Source: Nocardia sp. BSTN01 (lineage in GTDB: Bacteria; Actinomycetota; Actinomycetes; Mycobacteriales; Mycobacteriaceae). From it: a DNA stretch of 64,000 nt. Made by a program: the position numbers and the translations under genes. The notes beneath the pieces were generated by a model. The model did not search any database. It was not told where the DNA came from and saw nothing but the letters and a program-made list of their open reading frames with translations. The stretch is taken from NCBI RefSeq assembly GCF_015354405.1, contig NZ_JADKYP010000004.1, positions 124,001-188,000 of the forward strand, read 5' to 3'. Of this stretch, positions 1 to 15,106 are shown piece after piece. Each line of letters opens with the position of its first letter. The stretch's first letter is position 1.

Positions 1-728
1 AGCGCCAGTCGCTCACCGGCCAGTGTCGCGCCCGCACCGACCGCGCCGATCAGCCGCGACGCGGGCACCATCACGTCGTCGAATTCGATCTCGTATTGGC
101 CTCCCGTGCCGAGTACATCCAATTCCCGGACGACCCGGAATCCGGGTGCGGTGGCCGGAACGGCGAAGATCGACAACGACTCTCGCATCGCGCCCGGGGC
201 GGTGCGGGCGACGACGAGTACTTCGTCGGCTGTTCCCGCGCCGGTGATGAACCATTTGCGCCCGGTGATCCGCCAACCGGTGCCGTCGGGGGTCGCCGCA
301 GTCCGCAGTGCGGCGGGATCCGATCCGGCTACGCCGGGTTCGGTCATGGCGTAGCTCATCGTCAGCTGGCCGGAAACCAGTGCGGGCAACAGTTTTTCGC
401 GCAGATCGGGATCGGCGTGGCCGTCGATCATCCGGGCGTTGAGCAGCGCGGCCGAGCCGAGCATCTCGGGTGCGTGATCGCTGCGTCCCTCGATCTCGGC
501 GACGGTGAAGTAGTCGGCCGGCGTCAGCCCTCCGCCGCCGTACCGGGCCGGCAGTGGCAGAGCCCACAGCCCGGCATCGACAGCGTGTTCGCGTAGTTGG
601 GCGCGGATGGCGCGATCACCGGCGTCGAGTGCTGCTTCTGCCGGAATCACCTGGTGGGCAACGAAATCGCGGATCCGCGTACGCAGTTGCTCGCATCGTG
701 GGGAGAGTGTCGAGGGTTCGTCGGGCAT
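1..728 (-). CDS. Acyl-CoA dehydrogenase (N-terminal part, runs off the left edge)
   Basis: This is the first about 242 codons of an acyl-CoA dehydrogenase, a flavoenzyme that introduces the alpha-beta double bond into acyl-CoA thioesters. The reverse strand starts at ATG 728 and stays open to the window edge. I read the family signature AMTEPGVAGSD, which lies in the FAD-binding middle domain, followed by KWFITGAG and a beta-rich segment ending MVPASRLIG. The N-terminal helical domain precedes these. It diverges from the CoA-transferase at 816 across an 87-bp gap that must hold both promoters. Substrate cannot be told from this half; the neighbours suggest a steroid-, branched- or aromatic-acid pathway. 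The C-terminus with the catalytic base is outside the window. Confidence 0.9.
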   Translation of the reverse strand, partial: MPDEPSTLSPRCEQLRTRIRDFVAHQVIPAEAALDAGDRAIRAQLREHAVDAGLWALPLPARYGGGGLTPADYFTVAEIEGRSDHAPEMLGSAALLNARMIDGHADPDLREKLLPALVSGQLTMSYAMTEPGVAGSDPAALRTAATPDGTGWRITGRKWFITGAGTADEVLVVARTAPGAMRESLSIFAVPATAPGFRVVRELDVLGTGGQYEIEFDDVMVPASRLIGAVGAGATLAGERLA

Positions 729-815
729 GACCGCATCACACCATTGCCGGGAACTCACCCGCCACCGAGACCGACCTTATCGGACATCGGCATGTTTCTC
801 GGTGGAAGGCAACCC

Positions 816-2492
816 ATGACGAACACATCCGCATCCACACTCGCGGCCGAGCTGTTACCGACCGGCACGGTCGCCACCGTGACCGGGAGCGGACCGACCG
901 CCGCGGTTGTCCGCGATCATCTCGGCGCCTTGGGTGCGACCCTGGCCGAGGGCGGGCCGCCCGGTTCCCCCGACGTCGTGGCGGCGGTCATGGTGGAGTC
1001 GGCCGAGGGCGTGCGGCGTGAGCTGGTGGTCGAATGGGCGGGACCGGTGCGCGTGCCCGGATGCGTGAACGAGACGGCGGTGCAAGCTGTCTGTGGTGTC
1101 ATGCACGTCAACGGCCGGCGGTACGGCAGTCCGCAGGGAATCGGGCTGGATTACTGCTCCACCGCCACAGGTGTGCTCGCGACGACGGGACTGCTGGCCA
1201 GCTTGCTCTCACCGGAGCCCGAACTGACGGTGCGGACCAGTGTCGCGGAGGCCGCGTTGCTGTCGGTCTCGCAGTATCTGGCCGCGGCGGGCGCCGACGA
1301 TCCCGAGGCGGTCGCCCTCGCACCCGGTGGCCCACCGTTCACCAGCGCCGACGGGGTCCGCTTCGAAATCGAAGCGCTGCAACCGGAACCGTGGGCGGCG
1401 TTCTGGACAGCCTTGCAGGCCGATCCGTCGGCGTGGCGGAAGGGCTGGCGTCCCTTCCAGTTCCGCTACGCCACTGCGACCGCGCCGTTGCCGGTCGAAC
1501 TGCATCGGATCACTCGAACGCACACCTTCGCCGAGATCGCCGCCCGCGGGGCGGCAACCGGTGTGGCGGTGTGCCGGCTCTACAGCGCCGATGAATCCGC
1601 ATTGTCCGCTGGACCGAGGTGGGTGCCGTGGGATGTCGATACTGTAGCCGGAGCTGTCACGCGCGACGAGCAGGTAGGCGCCGCTGCCGAACCACTCAGC
1701 GGCACAGTCGTATTGGAGGCCGGCCGCCGCGTTCAAGCTCCGCTGGCCGCTCACCTGCTACGCCTGCTGGGAGCGTCGGTGACGAGGATCGAACCGCCGG
1801 GCGGCGATCCGTTGCGGGATATGCCGCCCTGCAGCGGAGATGTGTCGAGCCGGTGGCTGGCGCTCAACCGGCACAAGGACGCGGTGCAGATCGATATCAA
1901 ATCTGCCGCCGACCGCGCCGAATTGCGACGTCTTGTCGCCGAATCCGATGTTTTCCTCCACAACTGGGCTCCCGGCAAGGCCGAGGAGTTGGAGTTGTCG
2001 GCGCCACATCTGCCGGCGGGAACGGTCTACACCTACACCTCGGGCTGGTCGGGGGTGGATCTACCGGATCTGCCGCCGGGCACCGACTTCATGGTGCAGG
2101 CGCGCACCGGCCTGGCCGAGCTGGTCGGCGCACCGGAGACACCGGCCGCGCCGTCGCTGATGACCCTGCTGGACGTGCTCGGCGGCATGCTGGGCGCCGA
2201 AGCGACGGTCCTCGGATTGCTACGGCGTCGGCGCACCGGTACGGGAGTGGCGGTGCAGAGCAGCCTGCTCGGTGCCGCACGAACCTTGCGACGCTTCGGG
2301 ATCACCGCCGAAACCGCACTGCGCCAACCCTTTCGCTTGGACGGACGATGGCTGGCGGCCACGGGACCCGGTGCGCACACTCCGGTCGTCACCGACCTCG
2401 CCGACCTGCTGACCGATCCCCGATTCGCCGACGTGGTGGCGCGAGACGAATTCGGCTGCCCCGCCCTGTGTCCCCCCTGGAGACTGTCGTGA
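816..2492 (+). CDS. CaiB/BaiF family (class III) CoA-transferase
   Basis: 558 aa. Class III CoA-transferases move CoA between carboxylic acids. The family-typical core is in the second half: a segment LLGASVTRIEPPGGDP followed by RWLALNRHKDAVQIDI and then VFLHNWAPGK, which match the conserved strand-loop elements of the CaiB/BaiF fold. An N-terminal ~250 aa also resembles a degenerate copy of the fold, so the protein may be a tandem two-lobe form, longer than the usual ~400 aa. I chose ATG 816 because GGAAGG lies about 7 bases upstream; the frame is open further left (ATG 792 also possible). The stop overlaps the GTG start of the ligase by four bases, so the two are translationally coupled. 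Confidence 0.85.
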   Translation: MTNTSASTLAAELLPTGTVATVTGSGPTAAVVRDHLGALGATLAEGGPPGSPDVVAAVMVESAEGVRRELVVEWAGPVRVPGCVNETAVQAVCGVMHVNGRRYGSPQGIGLDYCSTATGVLATTGLLASLLSPEPELTVRTSVAEAALLSVSQYLAAAGADDPEAVALAPGGPPFTSADGVRFEIEALQPEPWAAFWTALQADPSAWRKGWRPFQFRYATATAPLPVELHRITRTHTFAEIAARGAATGVAVCRLYSADESALSAGPRWVPWDVDTVAGAVTRDEQVGAAAEPLSGTVVLEAGRRVQAPLAAHLLRLLGASVTRIEPPGGDPLRDMPPCSGDVSSRWLALNRHKDAVQIDIKSAADRAELRRLVAESDVFLHNWAPGKAEELELSAPHLPAGTVYTYTSGWSGVDLPDLPPGTDFMVQARTGLAELVGAPETPAAPSLMTLLDVLGGMLGAEATVLGLLRRRRTGTGVAVQSSLLGAARTLRRFGITAETALRQPFRLDGRWLAATGPGAHTPVVTDLADLLTDPRFADVVARDEFGCPALCPPWRLS

Positions 2493-4120
2493 ACCGAACC
2501 TACGAAACCCGCTGGTACACCGATCTCGTCCCGATCGAGTTACGTCGATTATGGTCGGAGCAGGGCTATTACCCCGACCTCGATATCTTCACGATGTTCG
2601 CTCGGCACGCTGCCGCTCGGCCCGACGCGCCGGCGTTGATCGATGCCGATGGCATGCTCACCTACGCCGAACTGCTCGACAGCGCACGCCGGCTGGCGGC
2701 TGGTTTGGCGAATTTCGGTGTTGCCGCCGATGATGTCGTAGCCGTGCAGCTTCCCAACAGCCGCTGGGCATGCGTGGCGGATCTGGCGATCGCGGCGCTG
2801 GGAGCGGTCGCGCTGCCTTATCCGGTGGGCAGGGGACATCGCGAGGCGGCGAGCCTGTTGCGGCGATCCGATGCCGTCGCCGTGATCGCCCCGGCCGATT
2901 TCCACGGAACCGGTATCGCGGCGCAACTGCGCGAGATGGCCACCGACCTGCCGGCGCTGCGCGCGGTCGTGGCATTGGGCGGGCATACACCGCGAGGGTG
3001 TATCCCCATGCATGCGCTGCTGGCGCCGGAGGCGGCGGACTTCGAGCCGCATCGGCCCGATCCCGATGGGCCGGCTCGCATTCTGGTGACCTCCGGATCG
3101 GAGGCGGAGCCGAAGATGGTGCTCTACTCGCACAATGCGCTCATCGGCGGGCGGGGCGCCATGATGGCGGCGTTGCACGACGACCCCGCGGCGATGCGCA
3201 ACATGTTCATGGTGCCGTTGGCCTCGGCGTTCGGTTCCAGCGGCACGGCGGTCACGCTCGCCGCGTTCGGCGCGACGCTGGTGCTGCAGCCGAAATTCGA
3301 ACCGGCGGCGACCCTGTCGATGATCGAGAAGGCACGGCCGACTCATCTGCTCGGGGTACCGACCATGATCCGGATGCTGATCGACCGTCCCGAACTCGAT
3401 GACACCGATCTGAGCAGCGTGCGTGCGGTGGTGCTGGGTGGTTCTCCGCTCGACGCGGAGACGATCCGGCGCGCCCGAGACCGGTTGCGATGTCCGATCG
3501 TCAATTTGTACGGCTCGGCCGACGGCGTCTCGTGCCACCCCGCCCTCGATGATCCGCCCGAGTGTGCCACCACGGCCGGACGTCCGAATCCGGCGGTCGC
3601 CGACATTCGGGTGGTCGATGCGGAATTGCGCCCGCTCCCAGCGGGAGAGATGGGCGAGATCATCTCCCGCGGACCCATGTCGCCGCTGTGTTACGTCGGG
3701 GCACCGGAGCTGGACCGGCGTCTGCGAACGTCCGACGGATGGACGCGCACAGGGGATCTGGGCCGCTTCGACCGGGCCGGATATCTGAGCATCGTGGGAC
3801 GCCGCAAGGACGTCATCATTCGCGGCGGCCTCAACATCAGTCCGGCAGAGGTCGAAGGGTTGCTGATCACACATCCGTCGATCAGCGACGTCGCCTGTGT
3901 CGCGGTGCCGGACGCGCTCTACGGCGAGCGGATGTGTGCATGCGTTGCCGTGTCGGAACCGGTTACGTTGCAGGATATTTCGGACTTTCTCCGTCGGCAC
4001 GGGCTCGAGCCGCGCAAGTTTCCGGAGCGGTTGCTGACGTTGGATCGCCTGCCGCTGGGACCGGCGGGGAAGGTGGACAGGCGGGTGCTGCGCGAGCAAG
4101 CGCAGAAGGACACCGAGTGA
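2489..4120 (+). CDS. AMP-dependent acyl-CoA ligase (ANL superfamily)
   Basis: 543 aa, an adenylate-forming ligase that activates a carboxylic acid with ATP and transfers it to CoA. Seen: the P-loop-like A3 motif ILVTSGSEAEPKMVLYSH near residue 200, NLYGSADG (A5 region) near 340, WTRTGDLGRFD (A7), GRRKDVIIRGGLNISPAEVE (A8 hinge) near 435 and the catalytic lysine motif GPAGKVDRR near 525. Its closest general likeness is to 2,3-dihydroxybenzoate-AMP-ligase or cyclohexanecarboxylate-CoA ligase types; I cannot name the substrate. Start is GTG 2489, overlapping the preceding stop (GTGA). The open frame extends back to 1619, but that part is a shadow of the CoA-transferase. Forms an operon with the gene before it. 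Confidence 0.9.
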   Translation: MNRTYETRWYTDLVPIELRRLWSEQGYYPDLDIFTMFARHAAARPDAPALIDADGMLTYAELLDSARRLAAGLANFGVAADDVVAVQLPNSRWACVADLAIAALGAVALPYPVGRGHREAASLLRRSDAVAVIAPADFHGTGIAAQLREMATDLPALRAVVALGGHTPRGCIPMHALLAPEAADFEPHRPDPDGPARILVTSGSEAEPKMVLYSHNALIGGRGAMMAALHDDPAAMRNMFMVPLASAFGSSGTAVTLAAFGATLVLQPKFEPAATLSMIEKARPTHLLGVPTMIRMLIDRPELDDTDLSSVRAVVLGGSPLDAETIRRARDRLRCPIVNLYGSADGVSCHPALDDPPECATTAGRPNPAVADIRVVDAELRPLPAGEMGEIISRGPMSPLCYVGAPELDRRLRTSDGWTRTGDLGRFDRAGYLSIVGRRKDVIIRGGLNISPAEVEGLLITHPSISDVACVAVPDALYGERMCACVAVSEPVTLQDISDFLRRHGLEPRKFPERLLTLDRLPLGPAGKVDRRVLREQAQKDTE

Positions 4121-4202
4121 ATCGGTGTATCCGTCGAAAGCTCGAATTGGCTAGCAGGGCAAAAGGTTTCACCGAGGGTGATTCAAAACACATTTCGTAA
4201 CC

Positions 4203-4217
4203 AGCGGAACCCGAGTG
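4203..4217. repeat. 15-bp repeat, copy 1 (AGCGGAACCCGAGTG)
   Basis: Identical 15-mer to the one at 9034-9048. Here it lies 75 bp upstream of the secreted-protein gene. Its GGAAC core resembles the -35 box of stress ECF sigma factors, but I see no well-spaced -10 partner. Confidence 0.35.
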
Positions 4218-4291
4218 CACAGCGTCCCGACTTGTTGACCGGCAGCCGAAACCGATCTGCCGATGAGGGACATCGAAATATGGAGAGAACA

Positions 4292-4960
4292 ATGAAGTTT
4301 CGCATGGGAGCCGCGTTCGCCGCGCTCGCGGTGTCGACCGTGATCGCGTCGACCGGCACCGCGTCGGCAGACCCAGCGACCGCTGGACTGGACATCCACT
4401 TCCAGGCGCACGCCGTGAACGGCTCGGTGGTGCTCGACATGGATGCCGGTTCGGTGACGGTGGCCGACAACCACCTGCACTTTATCGACCGCAACGGTGC
4501 CGAGGTCGCGGCCCTGCCACTGGCTTACCGGCACGAGGGCAAGCAGTTGCCGATCGCGGCGCATGTCGCCGGAAACTCTGTCGAACTGACGGCGGTTACC
4601 GATCCCGCGGCGGCGCGGCCTGCCGATGCGGTGACCGCTCAGGAGATCGATGCCCTCTCGCATCCGAATTTCAATGCGGCGTTCGGTAATTTCAGTATGG
4701 AGATGATGGCCGCCGCGACGGTGGGCAGTCTGCTCGGCAGCACGGTCGGCGCCGGGATCGGCTGTGTCGCAGGCGGAATCGTCGGCGGCGCGGCTGGTGG
4801 AGTGGTGACGATCGGGGTGCTGGCCGTACCCGGCGCGATCGGTGGCTGTTTGGTCACGGGCGCTGCGCTGGCGGCGATGGGCGCTGTGGTCGGCACGATC
4901 GTCGTGGGTGTGCCGGCGTTGATCGCGGCCGGTGCGCAGTTCTGGAACGATACGCACTGA
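4292..4960 (+). CDS. Secreted Gly/Ala-rich protein with hydrophobic C-terminal region
   Basis: 222 aa. A Sec signal peptide is visible: KFR, then a hydrophobic core (GAAFAALAVSTVIAS) and an ASA cleavage site before DPATAG. The mature N-terminal half is polar and beta-rich; the C-terminal ~110 residues are two long glycine-rich hydrophobic stretches with GxxxG repeats (VGSLLGSTVGAGIG..., GGIVGGAAGGVV...), which probably insert in a membrane or the mycolate envelope. This layout recurs among uncharacterised Nocardia exported proteins. ATG 4292 has GGAGAG 4 bases upstream; the in-frame ATG 4280 has GAGGGA at 9 bases and is equally possible. Followed by a strong hairpin at 4979-5011. Function unknown. 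Confidence 0.75.
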   Translation: MKFRMGAAFAALAVSTVIASTGTASADPATAGLDIHFQAHAVNGSVVLDMDAGSVTVADNHLHFIDRNGAEVAALPLAYRHEGKQLPIAAHVAGNSVELTAVTDPAAARPADAVTAQEIDALSHPNFNAAFGNFSMEMMAAATVGSLLGSTVGAGIGCVAGGIVGGAAGGVVTIGVLAVPGAIGGCLVTGAALAAMGAVVGTIVVGVPALIAAGAQFWNDTH

Positions 4961-4978
4961 CCTCGTCGGCGATACGAC

Positions 4979-5011
4979 GGTGCCCGGCAGCCATGCAGGC
5001 CGCCGGGCACC
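4979..5011. terminator. Hairpin terminator between convergent genes
   Basis: Perfect 10-bp stem, GGTGCCCGGC (4979-4988) with GCCGGGCACC (5002-5011), 13-nt loop, no U-tract, as is common in actinobacteria. It sits between the convergent stops at 4960 and 5063, so it can serve both strands. Confidence 0.6.
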
Positions 5012-5062
5012 TGTCTTCGTGGTCGTGTCCGCGCGGCACGAGACCGCGCCGGGGACCTGAGA

Positions 5063-5272
5063 TCAGACGCCGGTGAGTTCGTAGCCGGCGTCGGTCACCG
5101 CAGTGCGCACGGAGTCGACGGGCAGCGGTGCGCTGCTGCGCACGGTGACGCGCCCGGCATCGACGTCGACATCGACCGCCTCGACTCCGTCGAGTGTCGT
5201 GAGTGCCCGGCTGACCGCGCCCGCGCAATGTCCACAGGTCATGCCTGCCACTGAATAGACCGTCTCGTTCAT
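5063..5272 (-). CDS. copZ: Heavy-metal-associated (HMA) domain copper chaperone, CopZ-like
   Basis: 69 aa, a single ferredoxin-like HMA domain. The metal-binding motif GMTCGHC is near residues 10-16 (MTCxxC), followed by the GVEAVDVD and AGRVTV strands and the C-terminal DAGYELTGV helix-strand typical of the fold. It binds Cu(I) in the cytosol and hands it to P1B ATPases. Start ATG 5272 has AAGGA about 8 bases upstream. It is divergent from the copA gene at 5383 across 110 bp, so both probably share a copper-responsive control region, though I cannot pick out a CsoR- or CueR-type operator there. Confidence 0.9.
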   Translation of the reverse strand: MNETVYSVAGMTCGHCAGAVSRALTTLDGVEAVDVDVDAGRVTVRSSAPLPVDSVRTAVTDAGYELTGV

Positions 5273-5382
5273 TCCGCGATCCTTCCTCGTTTTTCGATCG
5301 GCGGGAACCGCGAACCGCTTCCGTCCGACCTCTCGTATGTGACTTTTCGAGTAGTCGGCAACAGGATGGGACCCGAAACGAG

Positions 5383-7626
5383 ATGACGACACCGGCGACC
5401 GTACAGGATCCACCCACCCGACGGGTGCGATTGGCTGTCTCCGGAATGAGCTGCGCGGCCTGTTCGGCGCGCGTCGAGCGCGCGCTCAACAAGATGGACG
5501 GCGTGGGCGCCAGCGTGAACTTCGCCACCGGCATCGCGACAGTGGACATACCCGCCCACCAAGAAGCAAAGACGCTGTGCGACACGGTGATCGGTGCCGG
5601 ATATCAGGCCGCCGAACTCACCGACACCGATCCGGTGGTCGACACCGGTCCCGAGGATCGCGCGGCCGCCGATCTGTTCCGGCGCCTGGTGGTCGGCTTG
5701 CTGCTGTTCTTCCCGCTGGCCGACTTCTCGATCATGTTCGCGACGGTGGCGAGCGTGCGCTTTCCCGGATGGCAGATCCTGCTGACGGCGCTCGCGCTGC
5801 CGATCGTCACCTGGGCGGCGGCCCCGCTGCATCGTCGCGCACTCGCCGGGCTGCGCCACGGCACCACCAGCATGGAGACTCTGGTCTCGATCGGGATCAC
5901 CGCTGCCACGGTGTGGTCGATGATCACCCTGTTCGTCCGGCCCGTCCCGGCGGTCACCCATCACGGGGTGTGGGCCGCGATCATGGGCGCCGATTCCATA
6001 TATCTGGAAGTGGCGGGCGGGGTGACCGTCTTCGTGCTCGCAGGCCGCTACTTCGAGGCCAAGGCACGTCGGCGAGCAGGGGGAGCGCTGCGTGCGCTCG
6101 CGGCCCTGAACGCCAAGGACGTGACGGCACTCACCGCAGACGGCCGCGAAATCGTCATCCCCACAAGGGAGTTGACCATCGGTCGACGGTTCGTGGTGCG
6201 GCCCGGTGAGACGATCGCCACCGACGGCCGGGTGATCGAAGGGTATTCCAGCGTGGACGCCGCGGCCATGACCGGCGAGTCCACTCCGGTCGAGGTGGCT
6301 CCCGGCGACGAGGTCACCGGTGGCACCGCCTCGCTGACCGGCCGCCTGGTCGTCGAGGCCACCGCGGTCGGCAGCGACACCCAATTGGCCGGGATGATCC
6401 GTCTGGTCGAGGAGGCGCAGACCGGCAAGGCGGCGGTCCAACGGCTCGCCGACCGGATCGCCGGCGTGTTCGTCCCGGCCGTACTCACCCTCACCGCGTT
6501 GACTCTGGCCGGATGGCTGGTGTCCGGAGCCGATCTGGACACCGCGATCGGTGCGGCGCTGGCCGTCCTGGTGATCGCGTGTCCGTGTGCGCTCGGACTG
6601 GCTACCCCGACCGCGCTGATGGTGGCCTCGGGCCGTGGCGCGCATTTGGGCATCTTCCTCAAGGGACATCACGCGCTCGAGACCAGTCGCACGATCGACA
6701 CGGTTGTCTTCGACAAGACCGGCACCGTCACCGAGGGCGCGATGAGCGTGGTCGCTGTGCATACCTCAGTTGCCGACAGCGACGAAATAGTCCGTACCGC
6801 AGCGGATGTGGAGTCGGCCTCCGAGCATGCGGTGGCCGCCGCCATCGTTGCCTACGCTCGTTCGCGAGGACACAACCCGCGAGCGGTCGAGGACTTCGTG
6901 GCGCTGCCGGGCCTGGGCGCGCGGGGCACCATCGCTGGGCAGCGCGTGTTGATCGGACGACCGGCACTCGTCGAATCCGAACACGTCGCGGTCGCCGAGG
7001 ACCTGCGCCTGGCGTTGACCACCGAACAGTCCCTCGGGCGCACAGCGGTCTATCTGTGCCTGGACGGCCGTGCGGTGGCGGTGTTCGCAGTAGCCGACAC
7101 CGTGCGGGTGGGTATGGCCGAAACGGTGGCACGGCTGCATCGGCGCGGATTGCGCACCATGCTGCTGACCGGCGACAACGCCGAGGCCGCGCGTGCGGTG
7201 GCCGAGGAGACAGGCATCGCCGAGGTTGTCGCGGATGTGCTGCCGGAGGGCAAGGTTCGCGCGATCCAGCAGTTGCAGCAGGAGGGGCGACGGGTCGCAA
7301 TGGTCGGTGACGGCATCAACGACGGCCCGGCGCTGGCCACCGCCGATCTCGGCTTGGCGATCGGGCGTGGCACCGATGTCGCGATCGGTGCCGCCGACAT
7401 CATCCTCGTCCGTGACGATCCGGCCGCCGTTCCCGATGCGCTCGAACTCGCGCACGCCACGCTGCGCACCATCCGCGGAAATCTGATGTGGGCCTTCGGT
7501 TACAACCTGGCCGCCTTGCCGATCGCCGTCGCGGGGCTGCTCAATCCGCTGCTGGCAGGTGCCGCGATGGCGTTCTCCTCGTTCTTCGTGGTGTGGAACA
7601 GCTTGCGGCTAAGTAATTTTCGATAA
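5383..7626 (+). CDS. copA: Copper-translocating P1B-type ATPase (copy 1)
   Basis: 747 aa, full length for CopA. Domains in order: N-terminal HMA domain with GMSCAAC at residues 21-27; transmembrane helices MA/MB and 1-2 (about 95-220); actuator domain with TGES near 296; the CPC metal site in helix 6 near 400; phosphorylation motif DKTGT near 445; nucleotide domain with SEHAVAAA (the HP-type motif) near 487 and GDGIND near 643; two final helices. The CPC motif with MTCxxC-type N-domain indicates Cu(I) (or Ag) export, driven by ATP, across the plasma membrane. It is 29 bp upstream of, and probably co-transcribed with, the CysO-DJ-1 fusion. Related to, but clearly divergent from, the second CopA at 9694. 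Confidence 0.95.
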   Translation: MTTPATVQDPPTRRVRLAVSGMSCAACSARVERALNKMDGVGASVNFATGIATVDIPAHQEAKTLCDTVIGAGYQAAELTDTDPVVDTGPEDRAAADLFRRLVVGLLLFFPLADFSIMFATVASVRFPGWQILLTALALPIVTWAAAPLHRRALAGLRHGTTSMETLVSIGITAATVWSMITLFVRPVPAVTHHGVWAAIMGADSIYLEVAGGVTVFVLAGRYFEAKARRRAGGALRALAALNAKDVTALTADGREIVIPTRELTIGRRFVVRPGETIATDGRVIEGYSSVDAAAMTGESTPVEVAPGDEVTGGTASLTGRLVVEATAVGSDTQLAGMIRLVEEAQTGKAAVQRLADRIAGVFVPAVLTLTALTLAGWLVSGADLDTAIGAALAVLVIACPCALGLATPTALMVASGRGAHLGIFLKGHHALETSRTIDTVVFDKTGTVTEGAMSVVAVHTSVADSDEIVRTAADVESASEHAVAAAIVAYARSRGHNPRAVEDFVALPGLGARGTIAGQRVLIGRPALVESEHVAVAEDLRLALTTEQSLGRTAVYLCLDGRAVAVFAVADTVRVGMAETVARLHRRGLRTMLLTGDNAEAARAVAEETGIAEVVADVLPEGKVRAIQQLQQEGRRVAMVGDGINDGPALATADLGLAIGRGTDVAIGAADIILVRDDPAAVPDALELAHATLRTIRGNLMWAFGYNLAALPIAVAGLLNPLLAGAAMAFSSFFVVWNSLRLSNFR

Positions 7627-7655
7627 ACAGCCGGATCCACCACGAGGGAGCAATT

Positions 7656-8585
7656 GTGCCGGTAACCGTATCCATCCCGACCATCATGCGGACTTTGACC
7701 GGAGGTGAGAAACGAGTCCAGGCGACCGGGGCCACCCTCGCCGAGGTAATCGGTGATCTCGAGGCCAACCATCCCGGTTTCGCGGGCCGCCTACTGTCGG
7801 ACGGCAAACTCAACCGTTACGTCAACATCTACGTCGACGACGACGATGTGCGATTCATCGGCGGGCTCGCCGCCGAGGTCCCGGCGGGAGGCTCGGTCAC
7901 CGTCCTGCCCGCGGTCGCCGGAGGCGCCGTGGAGGAGCCGCGGAAGGCGAACATGCAGATCGCGATCCTTCTCTACGACCGGTTCACCGCGTTGGACGCC
8001 ATCGGACCGTATGAAGTGCTGAGCCGGATGCCGGACGCGGAGACGGTTTTCGTGGCCGAGCAGGCCGGACCGGTGCGCAACGATATGGGCAGTCTGGCGC
8101 TGACAGCCGACCGCACCCTCGGGGACGTGGTCCGCCCCGACATCGTGTTGGTGCCCGGTGGGCCGGGGCAGACGGCGCAGATGACCAATACGACCGTGCA
8201 CGACTGGCTACGGGCGGTCGACGCCACCAGCACCTACACGACGTCTGTGTGCACGGGCTCGCTGCTGCTGGCCGAGCTCGGGTTCTTGACCGGCCGCCGT
8301 GCTACCTCGCACTGGCTGGGGCTGGAGGAATTGCGGCGGCGTGGCGCCGAGCCGACGTCGCAGCGGGTGGTGGTCGACGGCAAGTACGTCACCGCGGCGG
8401 GGGTTTCGGCCGGAATCGACATGGCCCTGACTCTGGCCGGCATGATCGCCGGTGACCGGCACGCGCAAGCCATCCAGTTGCTCACCGAATACGATCCGCA
8501 CCCTCCCTACGACGCCGGATCTCCGGCGAAGGCACCGCAGGAACTGGTCCAGGAGATGCGCGCCGCCAGCCGTCATCCGAATTAG
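7656..8585 (+). CDS. CysO/MoaD-like sulfur carrier fused to DJ-1/PfpI (isonitrile-hydratase-like) domain
   Basis: 309 aa, one uninterrupted frame. Residues 1-90 closely resemble mycobacterial CysO, a ubiquitin-fold sulfur carrier: VTVSIPTIMR at the start, DLEANHPG, NRYVNIYVDDDDVRF and the C-terminal LPAVAGG ending at residue 90, where CysO normally stops and is thiocarboxylated. Here translation continues through a short linker (AVEEPRKAN) into a DJ-1/PfpI domain from Met100. That domain has D114, C199 and T200, at spacings matching the Asp, Cys and Thr catalytic residues known for isonitrile hydratase. GTG 7656 has GAGGGAG 5 bases upstream. An internal GGAAGG precedes ATG 7953, so the DJ-1 part could also be made alone. 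Lies 29 bp after copA. Known: family roles; inferred: fusion and copper link. Confidence 0.85.
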   Translation: MPVTVSIPTIMRTLTGGEKRVQATGATLAEVIGDLEANHPGFAGRLLSDGKLNRYVNIYVDDDDVRFIGGLAAEVPAGGSVTVLPAVAGGAVEEPRKANMQIAILLYDRFTALDAIGPYEVLSRMPDAETVFVAEQAGPVRNDMGSLALTADRTLGDVVRPDIVLVPGGPGQTAQMTNTTVHDWLRAVDATSTYTTSVCTGSLLLAELGFLTGRRATSHWLGLEELRRRGAEPTSQRVVVDGKYVTAAGVSAGIDMALTLAGMIAGDRHAQAIQLLTEYDPHPPYDAGSPAKAPQELVQEMRAASRHPN

Positions 8586-8633
8586 CCGATCCGCGAAGCG
8601 GTGCGCAGGCCATGCATCGGTGTACGAGCTTGC

Positions 8634-8664
8634 TCACCGCTTGTCCGGTTGGAACAAGCGGTGA
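8634..8664. terminator. Hairpin terminator between convergent genes
   Basis: Perfect 11-bp stem TCACCGCTTGT (8634-8644) with ACAAGCGGTGA (8654-8664) and a 9-nt loop, between the convergent stops at 8585 and 8750. It would end both the copA-CysO operon and the opposing copper operon. Confidence 0.6.
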
Positions 8665-8749
8665 TGCCAGGGGCTATTGGCGCGATTTTGCTGTCCCGCA
8701 CCGGCTGAAACGAAGAAGCTCGGCTTGGGACGGTGATGGTCGGATCGGG

Positions 8750-8965
8750 TCAGGCGACGGTGAAGTTTCCGCCGGTGCGCAGTGCGCGCTGGATCTCCTC
8801 GGCGAGTAGTTCGTGGTCGGCGTCGACGGTGACCCTCGAGAGTCCTTCGATGTCGAGATCCACGGTGACCCGATGAACATCCGGGATGGCGGAGATCGCC
8901 TTCTCCACGGTGCCGACGCAGCCTTGGCAGTGCAGACCATCCACGGAGAATGTGGCTACGGACAT
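8750..8965 (-). CDS. HMA-domain copper chaperone (second copy)
   Basis: 71 aa HMA domain with GLHCQGC in place of the usual GMTCxxC, so the methionine of the metal loop is replaced by leucine-histidine while both cysteines stay. The strand-helix pattern (SVATFSVDG, TVEKAISAIPDVHRVTVDLD, SRVTVDAD) is regular. ATG 8965 is supported by AGGAG 6 bases upstream; the frame is open to 8989. It is the last gene of a reverse-strand set with copA2 (11946-9694) and the small membrane protein (9652-9155), though 189 bp separate it from the latter. Likely delivers Cu(I) to the adjacent ATPase; metal preference could differ because of the altered loop. Confidence 0.85.
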   Translation of the reverse strand: MSVATFSVDGLHCQGCVGTVEKAISAIPDVHRVTVDLDIEGLSRVTVDADHELLAEEIQRALRTGGNFTVA

Positions 8966-9033
8966 GTCGCTCCTGTCATCGATGATCATGGACGAATGAA
9001 CGCAGGCCCCGATGGGGCGGTCACGACGCTACA

Positions 9034-9048
9034 AGCGGAACCCGAGTG
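9034..9048. repeat. 15-bp repeat, copy 2 (AGCGGAACCCGAGTG)
   Basis: Identical to 4203-4217. Here it lies about 70 bp upstream of the reverse-strand HMA gene, in the opposite orientation relative to the gene it precedes. Confidence 0.35.
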
Positions 9049-9154
9049 AATATTACTGCGATTGCTACTTGTATGCCACGGCCACGGCAAGCGGCAGTAC
9101 CGGCCGGGAAGACGAGCTCTCCCGGCTGATACCGCTGGTCACAGCGTTGCAGTG

Positions 9155-9652
9155 TCAGCGGCGTCCGGTGGGCGCGATCCGGCAGTCCGGTTGCGAGGAC
9201 GACACGGGCCGGACGACCGCCGCCACCCAGCCGGCCGCCAGCACCCCCTCGCCCACCGCGGTCAGGGCGAACCATCCAGCTCCGAGTACGCCGCCTCCGG
9301 TGCGCAGGGACCAGAACGACAGCAGAGATACCACCGTCGCCAGGCCCGCGGTCATCGCACCTGCGCACATCCACGGGAAGCGGCGCGCGAGCACCGCCCG
9401 GACGGCCGTGCCGACGGCAGCCACAGAGATGACGATCGATATCCCCGGTAGCAGGGGTCGCGTGGCAGCTACGGCCGTCGGCGCTGCGGCCGTCAGAGAT
9501 AGCGTGGCTACCCCGGCCGCTGCCAGCAGAATTCGCACGGCGACCGGGCCGAGGTGGACCTCGTCCATCACCGACCGTTCGATCCCGCGCATCGATCGTT
9601 CTACTTCGCGGAGCCACTGCTCGGTTGCCGGGTCAGCGAATCGCTCTGCCAT
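9155..9652 (-). CDS. Small four-helix membrane protein in the copper operon
   Basis: 165 aa. A short cytoplasmic N-terminal segment (AERFADPATEQWLREVERSMRG) is followed by four hydrophobic segments, roughly VAVRILLAAAGVATLSL, GISIVISVAAVGTAV, AGAMTAGLATVVSLLSFW and GWFALTAVGEGVLAAGWVAAVV. No cysteine or histidine cluster suggests a metal site. ATG 9652 has AGGAG 5 bases upstream; earlier in-frame starts would overlap copA2. Only 41 bp separate it from the stop of copA2, so the two are probably one transcript. I do not recognise the family beyond its generic actinobacterial look. Confidence 0.7.
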   Translation of the reverse strand: MAERFADPATEQWLREVERSMRGIERSVMDEVHLGPVAVRILLAAAGVATLSLTAAAPTAVAATRPLLPGISIVISVAAVGTAVRAVLARRFPWMCAGAMTAGLATVVSLLSFWSLRTGGGVLGAGWFALTAVGEGVLAAGWVAAVVRPVSSSQPDCRIAPTGRR

Positions 9653-9693
9653 CGAACTCCTGTGCTCAGGGCCGTTTCCGACCATCAATGCAT

Positions 9694-11946
9694 TCATGCC
9701 GTACCCGATCGCCGACTGCGGCGAGAAGACGACTGTCGGGCGGTCGCGCGCAATCGCACACTGTTGCCGATCACGAGAAACGACGACATCGCCATCGCCG
9801 CTGCGGCGATCAGGGGATTCAGCAAGCCTGCCATCGCGAGCGGAATGGCCAACAGGTTGTACCCACCGGCCCACAACAGGTTTCCCCGGATGACGGACAG
9901 GGTCGCGGCGCCGAGGTCGAATGCCTTCGACACCGAGCGCAGGTCCGTGCCGAGAAGTACGACATCGGCCGAACCGACCGCGGCGTCGGCGCCCGACCCG
10001 ACCGCGATGGCCAGATCCGAGATCGCGAGTGCCGGGCCGTCATTGAGCCCGTCACCGACCATCGCGACCCGCAGACCCCGGTTCTGCAAGTCACGAATCG
10101 TCTCCACCTTCTGCTCCGGCGGTACTTCTGCGACGATTTCGGGGATTCCCAGTTGGTCGCCGACCGCGCGAGCGGCGAAACGGTTGTCACCGCTCAGCAG
10201 GATTGTGCGCAGGCCGCGACCGTGTAACTGTGTTACCGCCGCGGCGGCGCTCTCGCGAATGCGGTCCGAGATGGCGATCACTCCGATCGCCACGTCGTCC
10301 ACCGCTACAACGACGGTGGTCCGCCCGTCGAACTCGCTGCGCCGATGCGCGTCGCGAAGTTCGCTGGAGATCGAGATGCACTGTGAAGCAATGTATTTGA
10401 GGTGCCCGATGTGCACTCGCCGACCGTCCACCAGACCGCACGCACCCTGGCCGGGGACTGCGGTGAACGCGGTCACCCTTCGCGGCGTGCCGCATTCGCG
10501 GCGCGCGAGTTCCGCGATGGCTGCGGCGAGTGGATGCTCCGACACCTCCTCCACCGCGCCGGCCAGACACAACAGCTCGGCACGCGAAATTCCTGCGGCC
10601 GAGACGATCTCGTGGACGACCGGGATGCCGTCGGTGAGTGTTCCGGTCTTGTCGAAGGCGACCACATCCACGTGTTCGGTGCGCGCCACGGCGTCGTGGC
10701 CGTTGAAGAAGATACCCAGCTGGGCGCCGCGCCCGGCGGCGACCGAAAGCGCCGTCGGAGTGGCGAGCCCCAGCGCGCACGGGCACGCGACCACCAGCAC
10801 TGATAACCCGACCTCGAGCGCTCGGTCAGCCGATGCTCCGGCGAACAACCAGCCGCATACGGTCAGTAGCGCCAACGCCATGACGACCGGCACGAATCGC
10901 GCCGCGAGCCGGTCTGCCAGTTGCTGCCACCGTCCCCTGCCCACCTGCGCGCGTTCGGCCGCGCGCAGCAACAGCGTCGAGCCGGTGCCGTCGGCAGCCG
11001 CCTCGACGATCAGATAACCCGAGCGGACGACTGTTCCCGCTGTGACCGCGACACCGCTGCACATCGCCGACGGTGTCGATTCGCCGGTCAGGACGGCGGC
11101 ATCGATCAGCGACGTTCCCTCGACCACGAGTCCGTCGACGGCCACCGCCTCTCCCGCGCGCACGATGAACCGTTGCCCGGCACGCAGATCACCGGCGGGG
11201 ATCGACATCCGACGACCTGAGTCGGTCAGAACCGCAACAGTTTTGGTGGTTCTGGAAACGAGATCGGTCAGCGCCGACCCGGCCCGCTGTTCGGCCGCAG
11301 TGCGCAGATATCGGCCGAGGAGCACGAAAGCGGTGACTCCGGCGGCGGTTTGCATCAGCAGGGTACTGGGAACCAGCTCGCTCGCTTGTGCACCGAGTGC
11401 CCAGCGCGTCACCGTGCTCACCACCGACCAGCCGGTGGCGGCACAAATTCCGGCCGACACCAGCAGGTCCATCGTCGCGACGCCCGTGCGCAGCTTCCGT
11501 AGCGCCGCCGCATGTATCGGATGAGCGGCCCATGTCACCACCGGCAACGCCGCGATCGTGGCCGGCACCGCAGCAGCGTCGGCCTCCGATCCGAAGGGCA
11601 GCATCGACGGGTACGCCACCATCAGAGTGAGGCATACCGCGACGACCACTCTCCTGCGCAACGCTGTCGATGGCGCAGCGGCCGGGGCAGAATGTGGCGA
11701 CAGTGCCTGTGTTGCAACGTAACCGGCGGATTCGACGGCGCGACACAGTTCGGCCGGACTGCGGTCGACAGGCGCGTCGACAGCAGCCAGCCCGGTCAGT
11801 GGATTCACCGATGCCGCGACATCGCCCAGTGCCTGCAATCCACGCTCGACCCGCACGGCGCACGCGGTGCAGGTCATTCCCTCCACGGCAAGGGTCACCC
11901 GCCGAGTCGGCGGCGCGCTGCCGATCCGGCGCGTTGCCACGGTCAT
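9694..11946 (-). CDS. copA: Copper-translocating P1B-type ATPase (copy 2)
   Basis: 750 aa. N-terminal HMA domain with GMTCTAC at residues 23-29, eight predicted helices, the actuator motif TGES, the CPC site in VVACPCALGLATPTALSVAAGRG, phosphorylation motif DKTGTLTDG, SEHPLAAAIAEL and GDGLNDGPAL. Everything needed for Cu(I) export is present. ATG 11946 is chosen because AGGGAGA lies 6 bases upstream; the frame stays open to 12336, but that extension has no HMA-like content and overlaps the promoter region of the divergent gene at 12193. Heads a reverse-strand group with the small membrane protein and the second HMA chaperone. Differs throughout from the ATPase at 5383, so it is not a recent duplicate. 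Confidence 0.95.
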   Translation of the reverse strand: MTVATRRIGSAPPTRRVTLAVEGMTCTACAVRVERGLQALGDVAASVNPLTGLAAVDAPVDRSPAELCRAVESAGYVATQALSPHSAPAAAPSTALRRRVVVAVCLTLMVAYPSMLPFGSEADAAAVPATIAALPVVTWAAHPIHAAALRKLRTGVATMDLLVSAGICAATGWSVVSTVTRWALGAQASELVPSTLLMQTAAGVTAFVLLGRYLRTAAEQRAGSALTDLVSRTTKTVAVLTDSGRRMSIPAGDLRAGQRFIVRAGEAVAVDGLVVEGTSLIDAAVLTGESTPSAMCSGVAVTAGTVVRSGYLIVEAAADGTGSTLLLRAAERAQVGRGRWQQLADRLAARFVPVVMALALLTVCGWLFAGASADRALEVGLSVLVVACPCALGLATPTALSVAAGRGAQLGIFFNGHDAVARTEHVDVVAFDKTGTLTDGIPVVHEIVSAAGISRAELLCLAGAVEEVSEHPLAAAIAELARRECGTPRRVTAFTAVPGQGACGLVDGRRVHIGHLKYIASQCISISSELRDAHRRSEFDGRTTVVVAVDDVAIGVIAISDRIRESAAAAVTQLHGRGLRTILLSGDNRFAARAVGDQLGIPEIVAEVPPEQKVETIRDLQNRGLRVAMVGDGLNDGPALAISDLAIAVGSGADAAVGSADVVLLGTDLRSVSKAFDLGAATLSVIRGNLLWAGGYNLLAIPLAMAGLLNPLIAAAAMAMSSFLVIGNSVRLRATARQSSSRRSRRSGTA

Positions 11947-12192
11947 TCGGTCTCCCTTTCGGATCTCTGCGCGGGATAGGGCCACTGCGCAGCACACACT
12001 CTTCGGTCGGGCGACGCCCCGGTGTGGTTCCCGGCAGCGGGCGGTGTGTTGGGCGGACGTTTCTCGATGCACGGGTGTGATCTGCGTCCGTTCGGGAACT
12101 CCGCGCTGTTCGCATCCGACTCCTCGAAGATGTGGCACGTAGCGGAGCCGGCCGTCGATGCCGGACTCGGTCTTCCGGCGATGGTGTAGAGG

Positions 12193-14184
12193 ATGCGACG
12201 AGCGCCCGACGAGATATCCGGGCACACAGACCGTGGCGACCGCGGGAATGCCATGCTCCTGATCGGAGCGTTCGCGGCGGTGGTGATCGTCCTGATCGTC
12301 ACCCTCGCCGGCGGTCACTCCCGTTATGCCGATCAAGGGCTTCCCTTTCCGGGGTGGGGTTCGGCGGTCGGATACGCGCTGGTGCGCCTGGTGGCTGGGC
12401 TCGCGGGCGGACTGTCACTCGGATCGCTGATGTATGCGCTGTTCTGTGCGCCGGCCACCGCTGCCGGGCGCATCGAGGTCTGCGGCTATCGCGGGATACG
12501 GGTAGCCGAGTGGTCATCGGTGGTGTGGTTGCTCGCGTGCGGAGCCTTGATTCCGATCTCCGCGGCTGACGCGGCCGGAATATCGGTGCAGCGCATGATG
12601 AATATCGGAGGAACCGGTGCGCTGATCGCGGCCTCGACCGCTCCGAAGGCGTGGATCGTGGCCACGCTGTGCACGCTCGTGGTGGCTGTGGCCGTGCGGT
12701 TCGCGTTGTCGTGGAACAGCGTGTTCGGCGTGACGGCCTTGGTCGCGGTGGCGGTGCTGTGCCCTCCGGTAGTCGGCAATGCGGGCGAGGGCCCGAACCA
12801 CGACTACGCGACAGGTGCGGTGATTCCGTTCACCGTGGCGCTGTCGGCGCTGGTTGGCCTGAGCTGGTGCGTGCTGAGCGGCCGTGCCGACGCGAATGCG
12901 AGCGAACGCGCGATCGTATTGTGGCGCTATCGAACAGCGCTCGGAATTTCGGTTGTGGTGATGGTGGGCACCGCGGCGATTCTGGTTCCGATTCTCACTC
13001 CGCCCTGGGCGTTCGGTGGCTGGTACGGCAGCCTCGGTGTGGTCGCGGCCGGACTGCTCGCATCGCATGCAGTGCTGTGGTGGTGGTTGGGTCGGACATC
13101 GCCGGATTCCGTGCGGGTGCCTGCTGTGCTGCGGGCGGTGGTGGTGGCCGAGCTGGTATGGCTGGGGATTTCGGTGGCCATGGCGATTCAGCCCGCTCCT
13201 GCCTTCCGGCACCGCTCGTTCACCGCGCAGCAGGTGTTTCTGGGTTTCGACGTGTCCGCCGCGCCGAGCGTGTGGCGTGTGGCGTCATTGTGGCGATTCG
13301 ATGTGGTGCTCGGGACCTCGGCCATCGTGTTGGGGCTCGCCTATGTCGCCGGGATGATCCGCCTTCGTCGCCGCGGCGATCAGTGGCCGCGCTGGCGGCT
13401 GGTGTCGTGGCTGGCCGGTTGTGTGGGACTGCTGTTGGTGACGTCGTCGGGGATCGGTGCCTACGGCTATGCGATGTTCAGCGTGCACATGGCGGGTCAT
13501 ATGGCGCTGAATATGTTTCTGCCCGTGCTGCTGGTGCTGGGTGCGCCGGTGACGCTGGTGTTGCGAGCGGTCGAGCCGGCCGGTCGCAACACCGCGCCCG
13601 GACTGCGGGAATGGCTGCTGTGGCTGATGCATTCGCGGTTCACCCGTGTTCTCAGCCATCCCGCCGTTGCCTTGGCGGTATTCGTTGTCTCGCTCTACGG
13701 GCTGTACTTCACGCCGCTGTTCGACGAGCTGATCCGCTTCCACTGGGGTCATCTGCTGATGAACATCCACTTCCTGCTCACCGGCTACCTGTTCTACTGG
13801 GCGATCATCGGTATCGACCCGGGCCCGCGCCGGCTGCCTCATCTGGGAAGGCTGGGAATGTTGTTCGCGGTCATGCCCTTTCACGCCTTCTTCGGCGTCG
13901 CCGTGATGTCGATGGAATCTCAGGTCGGCAGCACCTTCTATCCCGAACTGAAGCTGTCGTGGATGAGCGATCCCATGCACGACCAGTGGATCGGCGGCAC
14001 ATTGGCCTGGATTTCCGGCGAGATCCCGGTCCTGCTCGTAGTCGGCGCACTACTGTCGCAATGGGCCAAACAGGACCGGCGCGAGGCCAAACGCAGCGAC
14101 CGCCATCAGGAACGGTTCCCCGATGACGACGAACTGGCCGCCTACAACGCGATGCTGGCCGAACTCGGCCGATCCCGCCGCTAG
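12193..14184 (+). CDS. Bifunctional CopD-like / CtaG-like copper membrane protein
   Basis: 663 aa polytopic protein, about 15 hydrophobic segments. The N-terminal ~370 residues look like the CopD (PCuAC-associated copper import) module; the C-terminal ~270 residues match the caa3-type oxidase assembly CtaG module, with the histidine/methionine-rich helices SVHMAGHMALNMFLPVLLVLGAP, IRFHWGHLLMNIHFLLTGYLFYW, MPFHAFFGVAVMSM and SDPMHDQWIGGTLAW. Actinobacteria commonly carry this fused form. It probably moves copper for cytochrome oxidase assembly. Divergent from copA2 with 246 bp between. Start ATG 12193 has only a weak GAGG; ATG 12253 is an alternative. It is the last core-like gene before the mobile region. 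Confidence 0.85.
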   Translation: MRRAPDEISGHTDRGDRGNAMLLIGAFAAVVIVLIVTLAGGHSRYADQGLPFPGWGSAVGYALVRLVAGLAGGLSLGSLMYALFCAPATAAGRIEVCGYRGIRVAEWSSVVWLLACGALIPISAADAAGISVQRMMNIGGTGALIAASTAPKAWIVATLCTLVVAVAVRFALSWNSVFGVTALVAVAVLCPPVVGNAGEGPNHDYATGAVIPFTVALSALVGLSWCVLSGRADANASERAIVLWRYRTALGISVVVMVGTAAILVPILTPPWAFGGWYGSLGVVAAGLLASHAVLWWWLGRTSPDSVRVPAVLRAVVVAELVWLGISVAMAIQPAPAFRHRSFTAQQVFLGFDVSAAPSVWRVASLWRFDVVLGTSAIVLGLAYVAGMIRLRRRGDQWPRWRLVSWLAGCVGLLLVTSSGIGAYGYAMFSVHMAGHMALNMFLPVLLVLGAPVTLVLRAVEPAGRNTAPGLREWLLWLMHSRFTRVLSHPAVALAVFVVSLYGLYFTPLFDELIRFHWGHLLMNIHFLLTGYLFYWAIIGIDPGPRRLPHLGRLGMLFAVMPFHAFFGVAVMSMESQVGSTFYPELKLSWMSDPMHDQWIGGTLAWISGEIPVLLVVGALLSQWAKQDRREAKRSDRHQERFPDDDELAAYNAMLAELGRSRR

Positions 14185-14231: not shown

Positions 14232-15106
14232 TTGCGCGTCGTGAGGACGACTGTTCTTCCGTCCGGATCGGGTTCCCGGCCGCGGTTTGCCTGTGGCGGT
14301 CATGTGGCTGTCGATGCGGAAATGACGCTCGAGCGATACGACGTGGTGGCGGGGTTGTTCAACACCGCGTTCGGTGAGCGACGGTTGCTCGAGGTCACGA
14401 CGTCGTCGGTCGAGGCGTTCCTGAAAAGCCTTGGCGCGGCCAAAGGGCCGTCGTCGATGCGGACCGGGCGCAATGTGCTGTCGGGGATGTTTCGCTACGC
14501 AGTCCGCAAGGCCGCGCTCAGCGTCAACCCTGTTCGAGAGTCGCAGCTGACGATGAACATCGAAGCCAAAGGCCGAACTGGCGGCACTCGCGACATCACC
14601 ATCGAGAAGTTGCGGTTCATGCTCGCGGCGGTGCGGACCTCGCGGCTGCCGTGCCCGCGCAAGTTGTCTCGCGCGGAACGCAATCGCGGGACTCCGGTGA
14701 AGTCCTATACCGCGCCGACGGTCGCGGACTACTGCGAGAACACCGACCTGGCCGATTGGGTGACCCTGCTCGCGGCTACCGGCCTGCGTCGCAGCCAGAC
14801 GCTGGGTGGCAGCGAGTCCGCGACGCCCTCGGCATCCCGGAGGACGTCACCGCCCACAGTTTCCGCGGCGCGGTCGCCACGATCCTCGACGACGCGGGTC
14901 TGTCGGCACGAGTCACCGCCGACGTTCTGATGCACGTCGATCCGGCCATGACCCAACGCCACCACATGGCCCGAGGCCGAGCCCACAGAGCAGCTGCCGA
15001 TGCGCTGGACCGAGCCGTCATAGGTATTCGGGCGGAGAAAACCCGCCCTGACCTGCAAGCTGAGTGGAGCTTGCGGGAAGCTACTCGAAACAAGCGCACC
15101 TGTTGA
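14232..15106 (+). pseudogene. Tyrosine recombinase (integrase) remnant with internal deletion
   Basis: Two out-of-phase parts of one phage-type integrase. From about 14310 to 14810 the frame encodes the SAM-like core-binding domain (TLERYDVVAGLF, SSVEAFLKSLGAAKGPSSMRTGRNVLSGMFRYAVRKAALSVNPV) and then the start of the catalytic domain, ending at ATGLRRSQ, the box I arginine region. From about 14815 to 15020, in another frame, the C-terminal end resumes with WQRVRDALGIPEDVTAHSFRGAVATI (box II H-x-x-R) and the HVDPAMTQRHHM segment near the tyrosine region. About 100 residues between are missing. The gene cannot make an active recombinase. It marks the junction between the copper block and the defence region, so it may be the scar of an old integration. 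Confidence 0.8.

Follow-up and report, generated by a model that had tools for sequence, protein, structure and literature searches.

How can a sulfur carrier be encoded as the front half of a longer protein, and what would become of the two halves? The question is raised by a gene of Nocardia sp. BSTN01, lying in a 64,000-nucleotide stretch of one contig (the window), in which a CysO-like domain runs on without a stop into a DJ-1/PfpI domain, close behind a gene for a copper P-type ATPase (Table 1). The thiocarboxylate of CysO sits at its last glycine (PMC3227635, in the part of the text available to us), and in the BSTN01 protein the corresponding glycine, Gly90, is followed by 219 further residues.

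Table 1. The fusion gene and its surroundings, in window positions
Feature	Position	Strand	Basis
copA1, copper P-type ATPase (HMA + E1-E2 ATPase domains)	5383..7626	+	domain scan
4.5-kb segment (fusion, copZ2, copA2) for which nearest relative G035 has 53 different bases	7644..12175		DNA alignment
GAGGGAG, probable ribosome-binding site of fusion; opens the segment missing in G035	7644..7650	+	sequence reading
CysO - DJ-1/PfpI fusion gene, 309 aa, GTG start, stop ending at 8585	7656..8585	+	frame translation, Pfam, PDB sequences
CysO-like ubiquitin-fold domain, residues 1-90, end LPAVAGG	7656..7925	+	Pfam, PDB matches, nt identity, dN/dS, model pLDDT
Linker AVEEPRKAN (nine residues): apparent post-Gly-Gly tail + read-through of DJ-1 gene leader	7926..7952	+	translation, leader comparison
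GGAAGG, probable surviving ribosome-binding site of DJ-1 gene	7942..7947	+	sequence; cf. GAAAGG in freestanding leaders
Isonitrile-hydratase-like DJ-1/PfpI domain; ATG 7953 = start residue of freestanding relatives	7953..8585	+	Pfam, PDB, alignment
copZ2, 71-aa HMA protein	8750..8965	-	domain scan
copA2, a further copper-type P-type ATPase; start set at the ATG following GAAAGGGAG	9694..11946	-	domain scan
copD/CtaG-like membrane protein	12193..14184	+	directly behind copA1 in G035; domain scan

The fusion gene and its two domains

The gene is a single uninterrupted frame of 309 codons. Pfam recognised both halves above its curated cut-offs, ThiS over residues 6-90 (E 2.5e-11) and DJ-1_PfpI over residues 101-260 (E 1.2e-25), which upholds the in-frame fusion read from the letters in a preliminary description of this DNA; in NCBIfam, SAMP1, MoaD and several DJ-1-type families matched, every one below its curated cut-off. 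Among PDB sequences, residues 1-90 matched a ThiS/MoaD family protein (4n6e_B, E 1.2e-30) and 3dwg_C (E 1.8e-28), which we take to be M. tuberculosis CysO. Together with the LPAVAGG end at residues 84-90, these matches agree with the earlier reading of the CysO domain as complete up to Gly-Gly. A structure model built from seven sequences was confident for the CysO half only (mean pLDDT 60-93 per ten-residue block over residues 1-80, vs. <50 over residues 87-309).

Isonitrile hydratase hydrates isonitriles to N-formamides, and a Thr has a role in this enzyme. Residues 100-303 of the fusion matched the isonitrile hydratase InhA (PDB 6ni5, E 2.8e-44), with 87 of 204 aligned columns identical, and its D114, C199 and T200 fall opposite Asp20, Cys104 and Thr105 of the 6ni5 chain, bearing out the Asp/Cys/Thr set that had been proposed for this domain. 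Asp17 and Cys101 of isonitrile hydratase are described as catalytic (PMC10971408, available part). InhA (PDB 6ni5/3non) thus has the three aligned residues in common with the fusion, but the N-terminal CysO domain is found in the fusion alone, and an isonitrile as substrate of the DJ-1 half is a prediction from sequence.

The fused CysO part gave dN/dS values of 0.09-0.20 against 30 freestanding genes; the freestanding cysO of BSTN01 reached 0.29 against the other 29, with one pair at zero. Five of the 90 positions carry residues unseen in the 30 freestanding genes, one of which, Asp63, is present in all six distant CysO proteins aligned (a seventh was left out because of a stop). In a 31-row tree the fused CysO grouped at the base of 14 freestanding CysO of one subclade, that of BSTN01 included (support 97/94), on an end branch of 0.17 vs. 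a median of 0.027. The dN/dS values and the few unseen residues fit a functional CysO domain, but part of both the low dN/dS and the divergence may predate the fusion.

The junction retains traces of the start of a DJ-1 gene. ATG 7953 stands five bases after GGAAGG, and the residue matching M100 is encoded by ATG, GTG or TTG in 20/29 freestanding DJ-1 genes; in six of the 29 (L012, L013, L014, L016, L017 and L036) GAAAGG stands in the leader shortly before this residue. The internal start pointed out in the preliminary description therefore does resemble that of a freestanding gene. From GGAAGG and these leaders, the linker seems to be a short tail followed by a translated DJ-1 leader, ribosome-binding site included, so that internal initiation at ATG 7953 may still occur.

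Copper neighbours and a segment absent from the nearest relative

The fusion does lie behind copA1, as first described: 29 bases separate the copA1 stop from the GTG on the same strand, a gap from which we infer that the two genes are probably co-transcribed. Between 5000 and 9100, one promoter-like and one terminator-like site were seen, counts like those of shuffled sequence, and neither falls in the gap. The fusion adjoins copA1 as part of one segment that G035, the closest genome compared, lacks. Outside the segment, G035 aligned with the window at 95.9% (1-5053), 96.6% (5149-7643) and 93.9% (12176-14184), and its cysO locus at 95.2% with that of BSTN01 over 3.3 kb. G+C was 0.671 inside the segment, 0.671 to its left and 0.656 to its right. 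The copZ2/copA2 pair (8750-11946, minus strand) lies inside the segment, convergent with the fusion; among the matches listed for genus genomes, those of copA2 were distant (64-69%), and copZ2 had an 81% match over 221 bases in G034. The CopD-like protein matches Pfam Caa3_CtaG in its C-terminal half. Beyond its gene, on the right, a frame at 14232-14930 (+) resembles, by eye, part of a phage-type integrase.

Searched whole among 150 genus genomes, its own included, with the best two candidates per genome, the segment was matched by BSTN01 alone in the matches listed; those of other genomes cover only cysO, DJ-1 or copA/copZ pieces. No donor was seen among these 150 genomes (two candidates scored each) or among plasmids. 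In G000 and G035, copD follows copA1 and shares its orientation; in five other relatives with a copA1 orthologue, G022, G036, G150, G210 and G079, it is reversed, and the two genes stand within about 1.1 kb with no CysO/DJ-1 match. The bases that replace the segment in G035 find matches of at most 14 bases within the window. Together with the five relatives, these replacement bases disfavour a deletion in G035 and favour a gain in BSTN01, although they are not proof of gain. As G035 lacks the whole segment and has no separate genes there, the comparison by which an assembly artefact was to be recognised, namely close relatives with two separate genes, does not apply.

The preliminary description had also reasoned that an enzyme destroying isonitriles, as copper ligands, would make sense beside copA. 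None of nine regions of 19.5 kb around freestanding DJ-1 relatives matched CopA1, CopA2, CopD, CopZ or CysO at E 1e-15, and for that reason the copper-isonitrile rationale is not supported, leaving a link to isonitrile chalkophores unsupported. Pfam FcoT, used to look for a chalkophore cluster, had no match in the BSTN01 genome, nor in any control. A second DJ-1 match adjoins 19/29 freestanding DJ-1 loci, AraC-type helix-turn-helix domains were found in all three DJ-1 neighbours scanned, and viral contigs held no relative of the DJ-1 part. The closest freestanding DJ-1 relative among the genus matches listed is in G022 (77%).

Is the fusion found elsewhere? Among the matches listed for 149 genus genomes, its own included (up to 15 candidates each), only BSTN01 matched residues 1-309, so conservation of the fusion in the genus was rejected. 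No second fusion was found in sets of 394 class, 396 phylum and 401 family genomes (best five candidates each); these sets overlap, BSTN01 is in each, and strict E limits in two of the searches could hide a distant fusion. A scan of genome contigs with the fusion, reaching close relatives only, returned seven loci, all of the CysO part alone. Plasmid record H2, with 83% of the query covered, proved to hold an unfused DJ-1 gene that follows one for an amidohydrolase. We did not find a CysO/DJ-1 fusion in print in the open-licence literature, including the available part of a 2006 survey (PMC1779556).

CysO in BSTN01 and across the genus

The genome of BSTN01 (7.79 Mb, a draft in 206 contigs) has a second, unfused cysO, which stands on a different contig and is flanked by mec (Prok-JAB) and cysM. 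This intact cluster, outside which the fusion gene lies, contains one JAMM gene (mec), and the genome encodes only one ThiF-family protein, which has a rhodanese domain (MoeZ-type E1). A look for mec and cysM elsewhere in the genome had been suggested; both are there, clustered with cysO, and with the E1 they make cleavage of the fusion possible. The fused CysO shares the whole domain to LPAVAGG with the CysO of this mec-cysO-cysM pathway (86% amino acid identity), but stands outside the cys cluster. At the DNA level the two differ at 47 of 277 bases (17%; 83% identity). A mis-join to the BSTN01 cysO would give near-identical sequence, and a chimeric assembly from that gene was ruled out by this figure and by the separate intact locus. 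On the DJ-1 side, the relative listed next for the genome shares 43% identity across residues 103-290.

A cysO match was found in 150 of 151 genus genomes, BSTN01 included (E 1e-8). For the comparison of C-termini we used 149 freestanding genes, that of BSTN01 and 148 loci from 147 other genomes of the genus (29 + 119 loci), leaving out G013, G201 and weaker second matches. All 149 translated genes stop within 31 residues of Gly-Gly, and none is fused. The preliminary description took a free CysO end as a requirement for thiocarboxylation, but a cysO gene need not itself finish at Gly-Gly: 99/149 of these genes, that of BSTN01 included, continue past it for 1-31 residues. The coding sequence stops at Gly-Gly in 50 genes; 60 add one or two residues, 26 add three to nine, and 13 add at least ten. 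The first residue past Gly-Gly is Ala in 76 of the 99 tailed proteins, Ser in 15, Gly in six and Val in two (A/S/G in 97/99); the fused CysO likewise continues with Ala, and the freestanding CysO of BSTN01 has a tail of 13 residues (GLDSTVAGGALGR).

Should thiocarboxylation require a free Gly-Gly, the 99 tailed proteins must be trimmed, and on these sequences removal of CysO tails is probably routine in the genus; tails of one or two residues (60/149) might be tolerated instead of cut. Seen beside tailed but otherwise ordinary CysO, the fusion would then be a CysO with a very long tail. Precedents for tails are QbsE and PdtH. Long, variable tails occur in L047 (G056), L220 (G189), L055 (G193) and L002 (BSTN01), and some tails are tandem repeats that hold Gly-Gly again, as in G056. 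The one genome of the 151 with no cysO match at E 1e-8, although it is listed as 100% complete, is G022, the genome that holds the closest freestanding DJ-1 relative among the matches listed.

A proposed route from one frame to two products

In the available part of PMC4326299, M. tuberculosis MoaX undergoes a cut between Gly82 and Ser83 on which its activity depends. The BSTN01 protein has the same layout, with an N-terminal carrier, an internal Gly-Gly, a small residue and a separate enzyme domain in one chain (AGG-A at residues 88-91); MoaX is cut after the second Gly of this arrangement. The partner in MoaX is the carrier's own enzyme, whereas that of BSTN01 is an unrelated DJ-1 enzyme and the cleavage is predicted. 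The accessible text of PMC8832034 describes a JAMM protein of Deinococcus that splits a MoaD-MoaE fusion; linear SAMP1 fusions are said to be cleaved by HvJAMM1, reportedly with no need of the diglycine, so that Gly-Gly alone is no proof of a cut site. Like the BSTN01 gene, the fusions of Iyer et al. (2006) combine a ubiquitin fold with an enzyme, the partners being ThiG, MoaE, ThiF, sulfite reductase, aldehyde ferredoxin oxidoreductase and Mut7-C; in the portion of that survey seen there is no DJ-1/PfpI partner, and the carrier is C-terminal with sulfite reductase and aldehyde ferredoxin oxidoreductase (PMC1779556).

We propose, with about even confidence, that the fusion is a processed precursor of the MoaX type, from which Mec or a similar protease would free CysO and the enzyme by cutting after Gly90. 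A duplicate of the clade's cysO, with a post-Gly-Gly tail, would have become continuous in frame with the leader of a DJ-1 gene for an isonitrile-hydratase-like enzyme; the resulting pair lies with a second copA/copZ in the 4.5-kb segment behind copA1. A JAMM protease, the chromosomal Mec, would cut after Gly90 to give a CysO with a usable Gly-Gly end, which would enter the shared MoeZ-CysO-CysM cysteine pathway; the DJ-1 enzyme would be freed with a short N-terminal stub, and some of it would perhaps be made alone from ATG 7953. Both the cleavage and the identity of the protease are predicted, Mec being a putative choice because the MoaX protease is assigned no identity in the part of PMC4326299 available.

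It is rather unlikely, in our estimate, that the fusion is accidental and that only the DJ-1 enzyme matters, with CysO as an attached folding domain that provides a start site behind copA1 and has no carrier role. Such an origin would suit its occurrence in one genome only, within the searches made, the linker that reads as a translated DJ-1 leader and the long branch of the fused CysO. The long branch also weighs against the precursor reading, as do the single genome, which offers no conservation to show selection on the fusion, and the second, intact CysO, which may make the fused copy dispensable. Against an accidental fusion, the CysO part is under purifying selection, some of which may predate the fusion, its Gly-Gly is intact, and most tailed CysO likewise continue from Gly-Gly with Ala.

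Less likely again are two overlapping products with no proteolysis, the DJ-1 enzyme coming mainly from ATG 7953 and the long form being minor or regulatory. The likeness of GGAAGG to the freestanding leaders and the start codons at the same residue speak for an internal start, but the long frame has a good ribosome-binding site of its own, and internal initiation and cleavage are compatible with each other. An uncleaved two-domain enzyme, in which the carrier would offer a group to the active-site cysteine of the DJ-1 domain or direct the enzyme to CysM/MoeZ, seems very improbable: ThiF and Mut7-C are among the enzymes described with a ubiquitin fold at the N-terminus (PMC1779556, available part), but with Gly90 inside the chain there can be no thiocarboxylation before cleavage, and the relatives searched do not share the fusion. 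A sequencing or assembly artefact, for which the draft state of the genome and the single example might speak, is equally improbable, as neither half is a near-copy of another BSTN01 locus, both halves read in the same frame, and the junction is far from either end of its 262-kb contig.

The processed precursor could be taken further. More tentatively, it would be a ubiquitin-style precursor, in which copper induction of copA1 would yield equal amounts of extra carrier and of an isonitrile-degrading enzyme, released by the JAMM protease Mec. MoaX and MoaD-MoaE, the fusions found for which cleavage has been shown in the parts of the sources available, join the carrier to an enzyme of its own pathway, whereas the BSTN01 fusion joins it to an unrelated one. 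On this further, more tentative reading, the fusion would be one end of a genus-wide habit, that of making CysO with disposable C-terminal tails. Deubiquitinases act on whatever follows Gly-Gly in ubiquitin fusions, and by comparison the BSTN01 gene raises the question of whether the JAMM protease may be a general CysO maturase, acting on any sequence after Gly-Gly.
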